From: a bacterium
Lineage (GTDB): Bacteria > ARS69
Reading direction: 5' to 3'
DNA length: 5,467 nt
Assembly (NCBI GenBank): GCA_025774865.1
Contig: JALGZO010000593.1
Span: 1 to 5,467 of the forward strand
The position numbers were made by a program, and so were the translations under genes. The notes under the pieces were generated by a model. The model did not search any database. It had not been told where the DNA came from and saw only the letters and a program-made list of their open reading frames with translations. Positions 511 through 5,467 of this stretch are shown here, in pieces (position 1 is the first letter of the stretch; each line of letters starts with the position of its first letter).

Positions 511-1161
511 TCAGGTTTGGTCGACCGAGATGATGGATTTGCGGATCGCGTACCGGATGAGCTCCGCGCGCGAATGCAGCTCGAGCTTGGCCATGAGGTG
601 CGTCCGATGCGTCATGGCCGTCTTCAGACTGATCGACAGGTACTTCGCGATCTCCCGGCTGGTCTTGCCTTCCGCCAGTAACTTGAAGACCTGCTTCTCT
701 CGCCGCGTCAGACGATCGTAGTCGTCTTCCTCCAGCGACTTTCCCGTCGCGACCAGGTCCACGAGCTCCGCGGCGGCGACCGGATGCAGGTACCGCTCTC
801 CGCGGTGCACGCAGTGGATCGCCTCCTTGAGCTGCGAGGACAGGCTGCTCTTCAGCAGGTACCCGTGGGCGCCGACGCGGATGGCGCGCTTGATGTACTC
901 GCGGTTCTCGAACTGCGTCAGGACGAGGACCTTGACCTCGGGAAAGTCCGACACGATCGCCTCGGTGGCTTCGAGTCCCCCGAGACCGGGGAGGTTGACG
1001 TCCATCAGCATCACGTCGGGGCTCAGCTGTCCGGCCAGCCTGATCGCCTCTTGGCCGTCGCCGGTCTCGCCCACGACCTCGAGCCCCGGATCCTTCTCCA
1101 GGATCGCCCGGATTCCTTCGCGCACGAGATCATGGTCGTCGACGAGAACGATCCGGATCAT
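511..1161 (-). CDS. NarL/FixJ-family response regulator (REC + LuxR-type HTH)
   Basis: A 216-residue cytoplasmic DNA-binding regulator, the usual length for the NarL/FixJ family. The receiver domain spans residues 1-120. It has the acidic pair D8/D9 (in LVDDHDLVREG), the phospho-acceptor D54 (in LMDVNLPG), T82, the switch aromatic Y101 and the conserved K104 (in GAHGYLLKS). A linker at about 125-148 leads to a LuxR-type helix-turn-helix at about 150-212 (LTRREKQVFKLLAEGKTSREIA, then SLKTAMTHRTHLMAKL). The position after KT, usually Val, is Ala182 here. All phosphorylation residues are present, so it should be active. Its ATG overlaps the kinase stop codon in an ATGA, which implies translational coupling and a cognate pair. 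Its targets are unknown; the divergent promoter region upstream of the kinase is the obvious candidate. It is confidently a NarL-type regulator, but no specific gene name is justified. Confidence 0.96.
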   Translation of the reverse strand: MIRIVLVDDHDLVREGIRAILEKDPGLEVVGETGDGQEAIRLAGQLSPDVMLMDVNLPGLGGLEATEAIVSDFPEVKVLVLTQFENREYIKRAIRVGAHGYLLKSSLSSQLKEAIHCVHRGERYLHPVAAAELVDLVATGKSLEEDDYDRLTRREKQVFKLLAEGKTSREIAKYLSISLKTAMTHRTHLMAKLELHSRAELIRYAIRKSIISVDQT

Positions 1162-3263
1162 TGCAGTGGAACCTCCAGCCGAACCAGACTTCCGAGCCCC
1201 GGCTCGCTATCGAATCGGATCGATCCGCTCACCAGCGCGGCCCGCTCGCGCATCCCGGCGATCCCCGCCCCTTCGAATCGTTCCTGCGGATCGAAGCCGG
1301 TTCCGTCGTCCTCCACCGTCAGTATCAGCTTGCCGCCGTTCTCGTACAACTCGATCGAGACGTTCTCCGCCTGGGCGTGCCGCAGGATGTTCGTCACGAT
1401 CTCCTGGTAGATCCGGAACGTGGCCGTCTCGATCTCCGGCGGCAAAGGCAACCCGTCCTCGATCTCGAGGCTCACCGACGCGCCGTGCTGCATCAGGTAC
1501 TCCTCCGCGTGCGACTTCATCGCGGTCGCGAGCCCCAGGTTGTCGAGCACCGACGGGCGAAGATGGCGAATGATGCGGTGGATTTCCTTCTGGGTCTTTC
1601 CCAGGAGATTCTTCGCCTTCGTCATGGCCGGGGTGTCCGCATCGACGCGGTCCAGCGAGAGCCGGATTACCGTCAGGAGCTGCGAGATCTCGTCGTGAAG
1701 CTCCCGGGCGATGCGCCGACGTTCCTCTTCCGTGGCGTTGAGCATGCGCCGAACGAGGACCGTGCGCTGCTCGTCCTGCGCTACCGTCCGTTTCCACAGG
1801 TAAGCACCGTGCAGCGACGTGGCGAGCTCCTGGCCCAGCGCCTCCATCACTTCCTCGTCGACCTCCGCCATTCGCGGGTGGAAGAGCTGCGCTTGCGTGC
1901 GTCCCTCGTAGCCGATCTCGCGCTTGCACCAGTCCACGGGTGGATCACTTCCGCGATCGAGCCACTCCGGAGAGCTGTCGGACGGGAAGGTGTACGTTTG
2001 CGCCGGCGAATCGAGGGGGCGAGTCACGATCGCGGCGGCGGGGAACGCCCAATGTTCCGCGATCAGACGGAGGGACTCGGTCGCGATCCGGGCCGGTTCG
2101 CGCTCCCGTGTGCCGACCTGGGCCACGTCGTGCAGCATCTTCATGTCACGGTACTTCGCCCGGATGAGCTCGGTTCGGCTCGCTACCTTCGCTTCCAGCT
2201 CTTCGTTCAGGGCCTTCAGTTTTTGCAGCGAGGACCGGAGCTTCGCCCGCGCCTCGTCCAGCGTCTCCGCCAGCAGCTCGATCTCGTAGTCCCCGGACAC
2301 CTCGATCGTGCTCGTGAGATCCCCGTAGCGCGAGCGCTCCGCCCGCTCGGACAGTTGCTGGATCGGGGTCACGATGGACTTGGAGAGAGTCCGCGATAGC
2401 AGGAAACCCGTGGCGGCGAGCAGGATGCCGGCGATCAAGAGGCCCCGTCGCGTCGCGATCGCCGCGGCCAACGCCTCGCTTTCGTGCTGCTGTACGACGA
2501 CCGCCCACGGGGCGAAGCGTAGCGGAGCCATCGCCGGCAGCACGTCGGGGGGCCACTGACCGTCGTGCGTGAAATAGCAGGGGTGTCTCTCCTTGACGTG
2601 GCGTCCGCCGGAGCGAATCAACTCGCCGGTCGACTGGGCCGCGGCAACGGGAGAGAACAGATCGCCCGCCTCCACCGACGCGATCACGACCCCGTTCTCG
2701 TCGACGACCGCGATGTGCATTTCGGCGTCGATCGTCAGCTCGCGGAGAAACGTGCTCACGGCCGATCCCTCGGGGTTCATCTCCGACACCAGGTGGTAGT
2801 GCGCGCCGCCGTGCCGAAACGGCTGGATGATCGCGAGAACGTCCGGGTGCTCGGGGGCGGATCTTCGGACGAGGGACGTGACCGCCTCGTGATCCGGCAG
2901 GTTCGCGGGGGGGGCGGTAATGGCGCCGGGCGGGTCCGAGACGAGCACGCTGCCGCCCTCGTCGACAATGTAGGTTGCTTCGTTGAACGCGGATCGAAAA
3001 CGGAAGGCCCGGAGGCGACCGGCCTCCGACCCATCAACGGCCGATAGCTGAGCGGACACTCGACCCAGATCCTGGATCGTGGAGGACACCGTGGCGTCCA
3101 GAGAGTGGGCGATCGTCCGCGCCAGGAGGAGCCGGTCGTCGAGAACGCTCCGGCGCAGGCCCGCGTACGAGAAGACCAGCACGACGCCCGACACCGCCAG
3201 GAAGAGGAGAAACCACTCCAGCAACACGCGATACAGGCGCCGGCGCAGGGTCTGGCGTTTCAT
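1158..3263 (-). CDS. Sensor histidine kinase, double-Cache-like/HAMP/GAF-like/HisKA_3/HATPase
   Basis: A 701-residue inner-membrane kinase. ATG at 3263 is chosen because GGAG lies five bases upstream; the frame extends 27 codons further but without a good ribosome site. Domains in order: basic N-terminus; TM1 about 13-35; periplasmic region about 36-273 with two Cache-like strands (YIVDEGGSVLVSD at 98-110, AVVDENGVVIAS at 185-196); TM2 about 274-292; HAMP about 291-345 (P300, GDYEIELLAETLDEA); coiled coil about 327-372; GAF-like region about 375-490. The HisKA_3 H-box is RELHDEISQ with phospho-acceptor H523. D524 and Q528 form the DxxxQ pattern linked in this family to phosphatase activity. 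The ATPase has an N-box around N625 (QEIVTNILRHA), a G1 box DDGTGFDP at 652-659 and a G2 box GAGIAGMRERA from 665. It is intact and probably bifunctional toward the downstream regulator. The ligand cannot be read from sequence. The Cache and GAF calls are fold-level inferences. Confidence 0.95.
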   Translation of the reverse strand: MKRQTLRRRLYRVLLEWFLLFLAVSGVVLVFSYAGLRRSVLDDRLLLARTIAHSLDATVSSTIQDLGRVSAQLSAVDGSEAGRLRAFRFRSAFNEATYIVDEGGSVLVSDPPGAITAPPANLPDHEAVTSLVRRSAPEHPDVLAIIQPFRHGGAHYHLVSEMNPEGSAVSTFLRELTIDAEMHIAVVDENGVVIASVEAGDLFSPVAAAQSTGELIRSGGRHVKERHPCYFTHDGQWPPDVLPAMAPLRFAPWAVVVQQHESEALAAAIATRRGLLIAGILLAATGFLLSRTLSKSIVTPIQQLSERAERSRYGDLTSTIEVSGDYEIELLAETLDEARAKLRSSLQKLKALNEELEAKVASRTELIRAKYRDMKMLHDVAQVGTREREPARIATESLRLIAEHWAFPAAAIVTRPLDSPAQTYTFPSDSSPEWLDRGSDPPVDWCKREIGYEGRTQAQLFHPRMAEVDEEVMEALGQELATSLHGAYLWKRTVAQDEQRTVLVRRMLNATEEERRRIARELHDEISQLLTVIRLSLDRVDADTPAMTKAKNLLGKTQKEIHRIIRHLRPSVLDNLGLATAMKSHAEEYLMQHGASVSLEIEDGLPLPPEIETATFRIYQEIVTNILRHAQAENVSIELYENGGKLILTVEDDGTGFDPQERFEGAGIAGMRERAALVSGSIRFDSEPGLGSLVRLEVPLQ
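1172..1176 (-). promoter_or_regulatory. Ribosome binding site of the response regulator, inside the kinase gene
   Basis: GGAGG on the minus strand, ten bases upstream of the regulator ATG. The spacing is slightly long. It lies within the last codons of the kinase, so the regulator can be translated both by reinitiation at the ATGA overlap and from its own site. Confidence 0.6.
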
Positions 3264-3268
3264 GACGA

Positions 3269-3272
3269 CTCC
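3269..3272 (-). promoter_or_regulatory. Ribosome binding site of the sensor kinase
   Basis: GGAG on the minus strand, five bases before ATG 3263. This decides the start over the in-frame TTG at 3344 and ATG at 3335, which have no properly spaced purine-rich site. Confidence 0.7.
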
Positions 3273-3291
3273 GAGGCTCCCGGAGAGCCCC
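3273..3291 (-). promoter_or_regulatory. Predicted 5'-leader hairpin abutting the kinase ribosome binding site
   Basis: Read on the minus strand, GGGGCTC, a five-base loop TCCGG, and GAGCCTC can pair over seven base pairs including one G-U. The 3' arm ends directly against the GGAG at 3269-3272. Such a stem could limit ribosome access to the kinase start, or it may be chance in GC-rich DNA. No folding energy was computed. Confidence 0.35.
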
Positions 3292-3336
3292 GCCCCAATA
3301 TCCTCCCGCTCCGGGTGGCGGGACAGGGGGCCCATG

Positions 3337-3353
3337 CCCACCAATCAGGTGGG
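3337..3353. repeat. Perfect inverted repeat, candidate operator
   Basis: CCCACC-AATCA-GGTGGG: two perfect six-base arms with a five-base AT-rich centre, 19 bases upstream of the TATAAT box. It covers the -35 position of the rightward promoter and sits 73 bases upstream of the kinase ATG. The size and symmetry fit a site for a dimeric regulator such as the adjacent NarL-type protein, but no consensus for that protein is known. Confidence 0.45.
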
Positions 3354-3449: not shown

Positions 3450-3454
3450 GGAGG
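3450..3454 (+). promoter_or_regulatory. Strong ribosome binding site of the propeller-dihaem gene
   Basis: GGAGG seven bases before ATG 3462, an ideal spacing. It fixes the start and places a signal peptide at the N-terminus. Confidence 0.8.
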
Positions 3455-3461
3455 ACACGAC

Positions 3462-5467
3462 ATGTCCTGCCATCGGCGCCCGCTCGGACGCCCCTCCCTG
3501 ACGCTTGTGAGCTTCCAAATCGCCTTCTTGATCACCCTGGTCGCCGGGCCGGCGTCGGCGTCGTCCCGGTCGACCGCCATCGACATCAGTCCGGATGGTC
3601 TCGAGGGTTGGGTCGTGAATCCGGACCACGCTTCGGTGAGTGTCTTCGGCATGCAAGGGGGCAGCGCGAACATGCTGCTGGCGGAGATCCCGGTCGGCCG
3701 CGAGCCATGGTGCGTCGACGTGCATCCGACCAACGGAGAGGTCTGGGTCACGTCAATGCGGGATGATCACGTCTACATCCTCGACGGAGCATCAAGGACG
3801 GTCGTCGATTCGGTCGCGGCGGGTTTCGAGACCTTCGGCGTCGCGTTCGATCCGGCCGGGACCGTGGCGCTGGTCACGGCCAGTGGATCCGACGAGATCT
3901 TCGTCGTCGATGTCGCTTCGAGAGCGATCACGCACACGTTCGACGTCTATCGCCGTCCGAGAGGAATCGCCTGGAGCCACGACGGCACTCGCGCGTGGGT
4001 CTCGCATCTCTTGATGCCGGAGTACTTCGGGAAGCTGACGGCGATCGACGCGGGCAGCTGGACTCTCACGCAGATCAACTTGCAACAGGTCTTCGGACTG
4101 GATCGCGGCGGCTACCTCAGCTCGATGCAGAACATCGCGCTGGCTCCCGCCCCCGGTGACTCGATTCTCTGGATCCCGAACACGCTGATCAACACGAAGA
4201 GCGGCGACCTCAGCGGACATCCTCTGACTCCGACCAACACGTTCCACGCCGTCGTCCGGCCGATCAACGTCGCGACGAACACCGACCTCAACTGGGACAC
4301 GTATTTCCTGAGTGAGGGCGGAACGCCGAACTCCGGTTTTGCGGGCGGGACCACTCCGGTGGGGGGGCCGGTCGCCGTCGCTTTCGGCACCAGCCGGGCC
4401 TACGTCGCAAACCTGCACAGCGAAAACGTCACGGTTCTCGGCCGCGACATCCTCGCACCACAGGAGCTCACGGTGCTGCCGGCCGGCCGAGCTCCGATCG
4501 GAGTCGCGATCCACACGGCGATCGCTCGGGTCTACGTGGCGAACTGGCTCAGCCGTGACGTCACCGTGCTCAACACCGCCTCGGGCACGGTGGTCGCCAC
4601 GGTGCCCACCACGACTTCGGAAGTCCTGAGCCCCCAGGTCCTGAACGGGAAGCAGTTCTTCTTCACCTCGACCGGCGACATGTCGCTGGAGGACCGGGGC
4701 TCGTGCGGGTCCTGTCACGTGTTCGGCCGCACCGACGGCCGTCCCTGGGATTTCAGTCAGTTCGGGACGCACATTCGGGCGACCAAGGATTGGCGAGGAG
4801 TCGGGTACACTGGCCCTCTCCTGTGGTCGGCGAACGTGGACGAGACTCAGGACTTCGAGTGGACCATCCGGGACATCATGGGCGGCGCCGGACTGATCCC
4901 CGGCACCCCGAATCCCGCTCTCGGTGATCCAAACGCAGGTCTCAGCCAGGATCTCGATGACATCGCGTTCTTCGTCTCCGTGCAGCAGCAGCGCCCGGAT
5001 ACTCCGTTCCTGCTCCCCGACGGGAGCCTCACGGCGGAAGCGGACAGCGGGCGGATCCTCTTCAACGACCCGTCGGTGGCGTGCCTCGTCTGCCACCCGC
5101 CGCCGTTCTTCACGGACAGCACGTTTCTCGAGGACCCGTGGATCCTGCACGACGTGGGTACGGCGGACTCCACCGATACGCTCGGGACGGCGGGCTACGA
5201 CACCCCGTCGCTCGTGGGGGCGTGGGACAACGCGCCCTATCTCCACCACCACCGGGCCAAGACGCTCGAGGAGATGATGACCACGCTCAACCCCGACGAT
5301 CGGCACGGCTTCACGTCCCAGCTCTCGCCGGAGCAGATCGGCTTCCTGGCGGCCTACGTCAAGTCGATCGGCTGGCCCGACTCTCCGGGCCCCCCGACGG
5401 GTGCGCCGTCGAGACCGATCGTCCAGGCGCCCCGGTCGTTCGATCGCGTGTTTCCGAATCCCTTCCG
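3462..5467 (+). CDS. Secreted YVTN-type beta-propeller fused to dihaem cytochrome c (MauG/CCP-like), C-terminus cut
   Basis: 668 codons are in view, with no stop before the window edge. Residues 1-33 are a signal peptide: basic MSCHRRPLGR, a hydrophobic core, and an ASA cleavage site after A33. Residues about 36-384 carry about seven YVTN/YncE-like propeller repeats; examples are GVAFDPAGTVALVTASGSDE at 126-145 and ARVYVANWLSRDVTVLN at 355-371. Two haem c sites follow. CGSCH (C415, C418, H419) lies in a cytochrome-peroxidase-type N-terminal context with DGRPWDFSQFG and a WSANVDETQDFE signature at 455-466. CLVCH (C541, C544, H545) is followed by HDVGT, DTPSLVGAWDNAPYLHHHRA and TLEEMM, the MauG/CCP C-terminal pattern. 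RHGFTSQLSPEQ at 614-625 precedes a final helix. The protein needs Sec export and Ccm haem attachment. Its activity is unknown: peroxidase, cofactor-modifying oxidase or electron carrier are all possible. After about 640 a proline-rich linker leads to DRVFPNPF, probably the start of a sorting or FlgD-Ig-like domain. It is transcribed away from the two-component operon. Confidence 0.93.
   Translation, partial: MSCHRRPLGRPSLTLVSFQIAFLITLVAGPASASSRSTAIDISPDGLEGWVVNPDHASVSVFGMQGGSANMLLAEIPVGREPWCVDVHPTNGEVWVTSMRDDHVYILDGASRTVVDSVAAGFETFGVAFDPAGTVALVTASGSDEIFVVDVASRAITHTFDVYRRPRGIAWSHDGTRAWVSHLLMPEYFGKLTAIDAGSWTLTQINLQQVFGLDRGGYLSSMQNIALAPAPGDSILWIPNTLINTKSGDLSGHPLTPTNTFHAVVRPINVATNTDLNWDTYFLSEGGTPNSGFAGGTTPVGGPVAVAFGTSRAYVANLHSENVTVLGRDILAPQELTVLPAGRAPIGVAIHTAIARVYVANWLSRDVTVLNTASGTVVATVPTTTSEVLSPQVLNGKQFFFTSTGDMSLEDRGSCGSCHVFGRTDGRPWDFSQFGTHIRATKDWRGVGYTGPLLWSANVDETQDFEWTIRDIMGGAGLIPGTPNPALGDPNAGLSQDLDDIAFFVSVQQQRPDTPFLLPDGSLTAEADSGRILFNDPSVACLVCHPPPFFTDSTFLEDPWILHDVGTADSTDTLGTAGYDTPSLVGAWDNAPYLHHHRAKTLEEMMTTLNPDDRHGFTSQLSPEQIGFLAAYVKSIGWPDSPGPPTGAPSRPIVQAPRSFDRVFPNPF

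Follow-up and report, generated by a model that had tools for sequence, protein, structure and literature searches.

We identified in the window, the whole stretch of DNA analysed (one complete contig of 5467 bases, C597 of genome G000), a gene for a protein that belongs to the known superfamily of fusions resembling the beta and gamma chains of hydrazine synthase (HZS). In a single chain it carries a beta-like propeller followed by a gamma-like dihaem module, and it forms a separate branch with its own sequence motif and C-terminal tag (Table 1). The protein is not a hydrazine synthase, because Trp455 stands in the place of His144 of HZS gamma, Cys165 and Asp168 are absent, and it has a DE(x2)D motif of its own. 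The 3' end of the gene is missing because the contig ends, directly after the residues FPNPF. In three homologues (L013, L002 and L046) the same FPNPF is followed by a complete FlgD_ig domain (PF13860), and, as these show, the window gene would run on past the contig end into a FlgD-like tail; a search for an overlapping contig with the last 101 bases of the window found none. On the other side of the gene lies a divergent NarL-type two-component pair (511-3344, reverse strand), which may be its regulator.

Table 1 Features of the window around the propeller-dihaem gene
Feature	Position	Strand	Basis or remark
NarL/LuxR-type response regulator, 4-base overlap with kinase gene	511..1161	-	ORF and domain scan
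Sensor histidine kinase (HAMP, HisKA_3, HATPase_c), divergent neighbour	1158..3344	-	Domain scan
Shine-Dalgarno-like GGAGGA	3450..3455	+	6-7 bases 5' of ATG 3462; sequence reading
CDS, propeller-dihaem protein, 668 aa, 3' end missing	3462..5467	+	ORF and translation
Predicted Sec-type signal peptide, residues 1-33, predicted cleavage after ASA	3462..3560	+	Sequence reading; inference
Seven-bladed YVTN/HZS-beta-like propeller, residues ~34-384	3561..4613	+	TIGR02276 and AlphaFold2 model
Blade-5 region, irregular, low-confidence, with insertion, residues ~207-300	4080..4361	+	pLDDT 28-63, long loops in model
Haem I motif CGSCH, residues 415-419	4704..4718	+	Aligns with HZS gamma Cys102-His106; presumed active haem
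Motif W455-x4-D460-E461-x2-D464-x-E466, between haem sites	4824..4859	+	Alignment
Haem II motif CLVCH, residues 541-545	5082..5096	+	Aligns with HZS gamma haem II
DTPSL (580-584)...APYLH (591-595)	5199..5246	+	Signature common to CCP/MauG/HZS gamma
His615, predicted haem II distal ligand (bis-His)	5304..5306	+	Aligns with HZS gamma His332
Linker and first residues (FDRVFPNPF) of FlgD-Ig/T9SS-type C-terminal domain, cut by contig end	5397..5467	+	Homologues

The propeller half matches the YVTN repeat family TIGR02276 with an E value of 9.1e-22 (NCBIfam profile search). In an AlphaFold2 model built from two sequences, that of the window and one homologue, the propeller has pLDDT values mostly of 70-94 and seven strand groups, the fifth blade being irregular; the model predicts a closed seven-bladed propeller. 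Its top PDB match by VIA-align is HZS beta (5c2v_B, Z 36.4 over 313 residues), with the YVTN propeller 1l0q_A as runner-up (Z 33.9), and Foldseek gives the reverse order, 1l0q first and HZS beta second. A sequence-only reading of this DNA had proposed an approximately seven-bladed YVTN propeller and a structure prediction as its check, and both the profile match and the model bear it out. The haem half has pLDDT below 40 in the full model and 29 when folded alone; its CCP-like packing would be expected from the sequence.

Among solved enzymes HZS is the best match for both halves, gamma by sequence and beta by fold. The window protein is matched by the HZS beta-gamma fusion family (E 7.5e-18) and by HZS gamma (E 2.4e-14) in NCBIfam, at scores that miss the curated HZS cut-offs (64 of 1250 bits). 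Searching the PDB with a profile of the window family (A1) returned a YVTN surface-layer protein, then HZS gamma (5c2v_C, E 8.5e-22), HZS beta (5c2v_B, E 6.4e-9) and FlgD. The sequence-only reading had called the haem module MauG/CCP-like. This holds for the superfamily, since HZS gamma is homologous to MauG and the bacterial CCPs, with a similar fold and haem arrangement (PMC12607021), and both haem motifs and the DTPSL...APYLH signature are present at the residues it had named. It does not hold for the nearest relatives: CCP_MauG (PF03150) scores 16.2 bits against a cut-off of 25.6, MauG gives an E value of 0.083 and TTQ_mauG is below its cut-off, although one relative (L046) passes PF03150 with 32.0 bits. 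In the tree, HZS gamma joins proteins of the published clade I-III type with support of 99/95, a tentative join because two long branches meet there; the window branch, which has 5 rows and support of 100/99, falls outside this group.

The active site was read from a 38-row alignment (A2) to which the HZS gamma chain was added. The haem ligands His419 and His545 are found in the alignment, and none of the haem-site columns varies among the 32 relatives. Trp455 occupies the position of His144; tryptophan here is the state of CCP and MauG, where it is important for catalysis, and is shared by the clade I-III homologues (PMC12758564). No cysteine follows W455 in the segment that could correspond to Cys165, which forms the third thioether to haem I in HZS gamma, and Asp168 aligns with Gly475, in a part where a length difference makes the alignment loose. 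In contrast, His615 falls in the column of HZS gamma His332 and is kept in 28 of the 32 relatives. The residues D460, E461 and D464 of the W(x4)DE(x2)D motif are present in 32/32 family members and in none of the five HZS-like clade proteins, which show P-T-R in these columns, while the column of Glu466 is that of the Cys165 equivalent in clade-I HZS-like proteins. The W455-DE-D segment and His595 are strongly conserved.

The order, with a seven-bladed propeller first and a two-haem CCP-like module second, is the same as in HZS beta/gamma of Kuenenia (5C2V) and in the fused HZS-BC of Scalindua (NF052342). The haem I and II motifs, DTPxL...H and the DxHGxTSxL segment with the haem II distal histidine are likewise common to HZS gamma, whereas the FlgD-type tail differs. 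In 2025, distant fusions of the beta-gamma-like kind were described from outside anammox. With the clade I-III proteins (from Syntrophobacter, Opitutus and Planctomycetota; PMC12758564) the window protein shares the fused propeller and two haems, the tryptophan and the His615 equivalent. It differs from them in its acidic motif and separate branch, in lacking N-terminal c554 haems, and in having no HZS-alpha-like or CRTAC1 gene beside it on the readable side. With the bacterial dihaem CCP, MauG and MbnH it shares the superfamily signature and the tryptophan between the haems, but these have no propeller in front.

Proteins of this kind are widespread. Over the module, homologues reach 49-67% identity; they come from the window's own lineage and from one further phylum. 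Of the four other genomes of the window's phylum, two have close homologues, and one of these matches a MAG that was deposited under the name Gemmatimonadota bacterium DHS20C21; a close homologue with the same tail is encoded in G368, from another phylum. The window's genome holds two extra copies, one in a 3146-residue protein and one cut by a contig end. In the phylum of G377, 68 of 282 genomes have more distant homologues, which agrees with the earlier remark that environmental genomes contain similar domain pairings; plasmids of Comamonadaceae and Anoxybacillus carry such homologues too. The architecture of the reading frame is therefore not due to chance, given the homologues, the two paralogues and the invariant haem columns. 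The gene neighbourhoods of four close homologues showed no conserved member. The 3146-residue paralogue (L018, 500-9937) combines TolB-like propellers, DUF11 repeats, the propeller-dihaem module and a FlgD-like tail in a single chain. Five further proteins (L085, L087, L089, L093 and L097) have long N-terminal regions before Big_5/PKD domains and the module; the LVIVD repeat was found in L087, and the other four are similar to it by eye only, L089 being outside the scan. In Anoxybacillus, a 686-residue protein with no Pfam or NCBIfam match is encoded directly upstream of the homologue (L044, 5753-7813).

In five relatives the module sits behind a copper radical oxidase domain of the GlxA/galactose-oxidase type. 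Four of them (L050, L098, L092 and L084) come from the phylum of G377 and the fifth (L043) is a Comamonadaceae plasmid protein. NF052501 matches the two fusion proteins scanned with it (8e-44 and 7e-40), PF09118 was found in 4/4 scanned, our own oxidase profile matches all five, and the YHS motif and the active-site cysteine (in the expected FC motif) are kept in every one. These chains also bear binding domains (PKD, PA14, F5/8 C, laminin G, NPCBM). Four of the five cluster in the tree, whereas L084 stands apart from them where the branching is poorly resolved, so that the fusion may have two separate origins. Across genomes, the family tends to be found together with copper radical oxidase genes (11/15 against 57/267 genomes, p 5e-5, or p 0.004 when genomes with fusions are left out, both values being uncorrected for relatedness and genome size). 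A search with PF09118 found no copper radical oxidase in the window's phylum, where the controls gave no match either; the same model does detect one in another phylum. The oxidase link concerns the relatives only, the window protein itself being unfused.

Copper radical oxidases produce H2O2 and pair with peroxidases, as in DtpA-Sco-GlxA (PMC4736821) and Perox-AlcOx (PMC9770985): maturation of Streptomyces GlxA requires Sco and the peroxidase DtpA (PMC4736821), and in fungi a tandem peroxidase activates the alcohol oxidases (PMC9770985). The relatives resemble these systems in being fused to a GlxA-like oxidase, and a SCO gene follows the plasmid gene of L043, the one case among the five fusions. 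They differ in being single chains, and the known pairs use other peroxidase families (DyP and class II). Among the titles and abstracts returned by a literature search there was no report of a copper radical oxidase fused to a dihaem peroxidase.

Because of these oxidase fusions and the DtpA and Perox-AlcOx precedents, a peroxidase-type role is our best guess for the module. We propose, with about even confidence, that the window protein is an extracellular, peroxide-driven dihaem oxidase or peroxidase, a secreted single chain of the HZS-beta-gamma/CCP-MauG superfamily; it is probably anchored at the surface. Haem I, with His419 as proximal ligand, would react with hydrogen peroxide on its distal side, which would be open and have the W455/D460/E461/D464/E466 segment as its lining, and haem II (His545/His615) would feed it electrons via Trp455. 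The propeller may dock a partner or gate access, as in HZS beta. Overall, peroxide would be reduced while a partner protein or a small molecule is oxidised outside the cytoplasm, a chemistry like that of CCP, MauG or MbnH and not that of hydrazine or hydroxylamine. Several points count against this proposal, among them the lack of an oxidase match in the window's phylum and of a shared gene neighbour in the close homologues. The catalytic glutamate of CCP has no clear counterpart in the window protein. The haem II ligands are His/Met in CCP and His/Tyr in MauG, and the predicted bis-His haem II departs from both. The haem half also lacks a confident model, so that its packing and open distal face stay predictions.

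The best characterised relatives, HZS beta and gamma, would suggest instead NO or hydroxylamine chemistry like that of HZS gamma, possibly within a complex that includes an HZS-alpha-like protein encoded elsewhere in the genome. Genes with the HZS_alpha domain (PF18582) are indeed present in four of the five genomes of the phylum, three of which (G000, G001 and G004) also have a window-type gene, while G003 has neither; in G002 the PF18582 gene adjoins a clade-type beta-gamma-like gene, together with CRTAC1-like and tetrahaem genes, an arrangement that matches the published HZS-alpha/beta-gamma-like operon. A locus of the published operon type in a genome of the same phylum (L106, 1-5800) carries CRTAC1/FG-GAP-like, HZS-alpha-like, HZS-beta-gamma-like and tetrahaem c554-like genes. 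We nevertheless consider this chemistry highly improbable for the window protein. Besides the replacement of His144 and the missing Cys165 and Asp168, HZS gamma clusters with the clade I-III type and not with the window branch, albeit through long branches. The alpha-like gene of the window's genome, split over C753 and C363 (109-base overlap, 99%; L016 3569-4189 and L017 2-2047, both reverse strand), lies on other contigs with neighbours of its own, among them a downstream thioredoxin-like gene; the downstream side of the window gene lies beyond the contig end. The alpha-like protein has the haem motifs CVGCH and CASCH, and in its CVGCHEART segment Thr replaces the HZS alpha ligand Tyr591. 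The full-length HZS alpha family (NF052339) gives weak matches only in this genome, and the estimated contamination of the assembly is 8.3%. Hydrazine synthesis by this genome is not inferred.

A RoxA-like oxygenase, using O2 at haem I for extracellular polymer cleavage, would suit a secreted protein, and the RoxA-like cytochrome c motif is weakly matched (20.6 bits), as are RoxC and RoxA over 40 residues. The motif score is below the cut-off of 26.7 bits and the match is confined to the DTPSL..H segment common to the whole superfamily, which makes such an oxygenase very unlikely. The two c-haems, the propeller, the surface-type tag and the giant adhesin-like DUF11 paralogue would also fit an electron-transfer or surface-structural protein without catalysis of its own, for example one passing electrons to the outer cell face; we regard this as unlikely, since the strong conservation of the W455-DE-D segment and of His595 is more in keeping with an active site than with a plain electron conduit.

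The sequence-only reading knew of no assigned function for this domain pairing. For the fusion class this stands, but the solved precedent of HZS beta-gamma had been overlooked, as had the secretion tag and the paralogues, and the continuation of the gene past the window lay outside its view; our literature search for a propeller-CCP fusion with known function gave only HZS papers as relevant. HZS was long thought to have no relatives; the wide spread of fused beta-gamma-like proteins has since been recognised, with their function unassigned. The window protein adds a distinct branch, with an invariant acidic motif of its own, from a host lineage that is little known. The copper radical oxidase fusions offer a tangible and testable hint to the function of the module and to the chemistry that the HZS ancestor may have had. 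More tentatively than for the window protein itself, we suggest that the propeller-dihaem module could serve extracellular oxidases in general as their peroxide-driven partner, in certain bacteria forming one chain with a copper radical oxidase that it would mature, activate or clear of H2O2, the window protein being a free-standing member that serves another partner. If this were true, what the wide HZS-beta-gamma-like superfamily catalyses would become testable.
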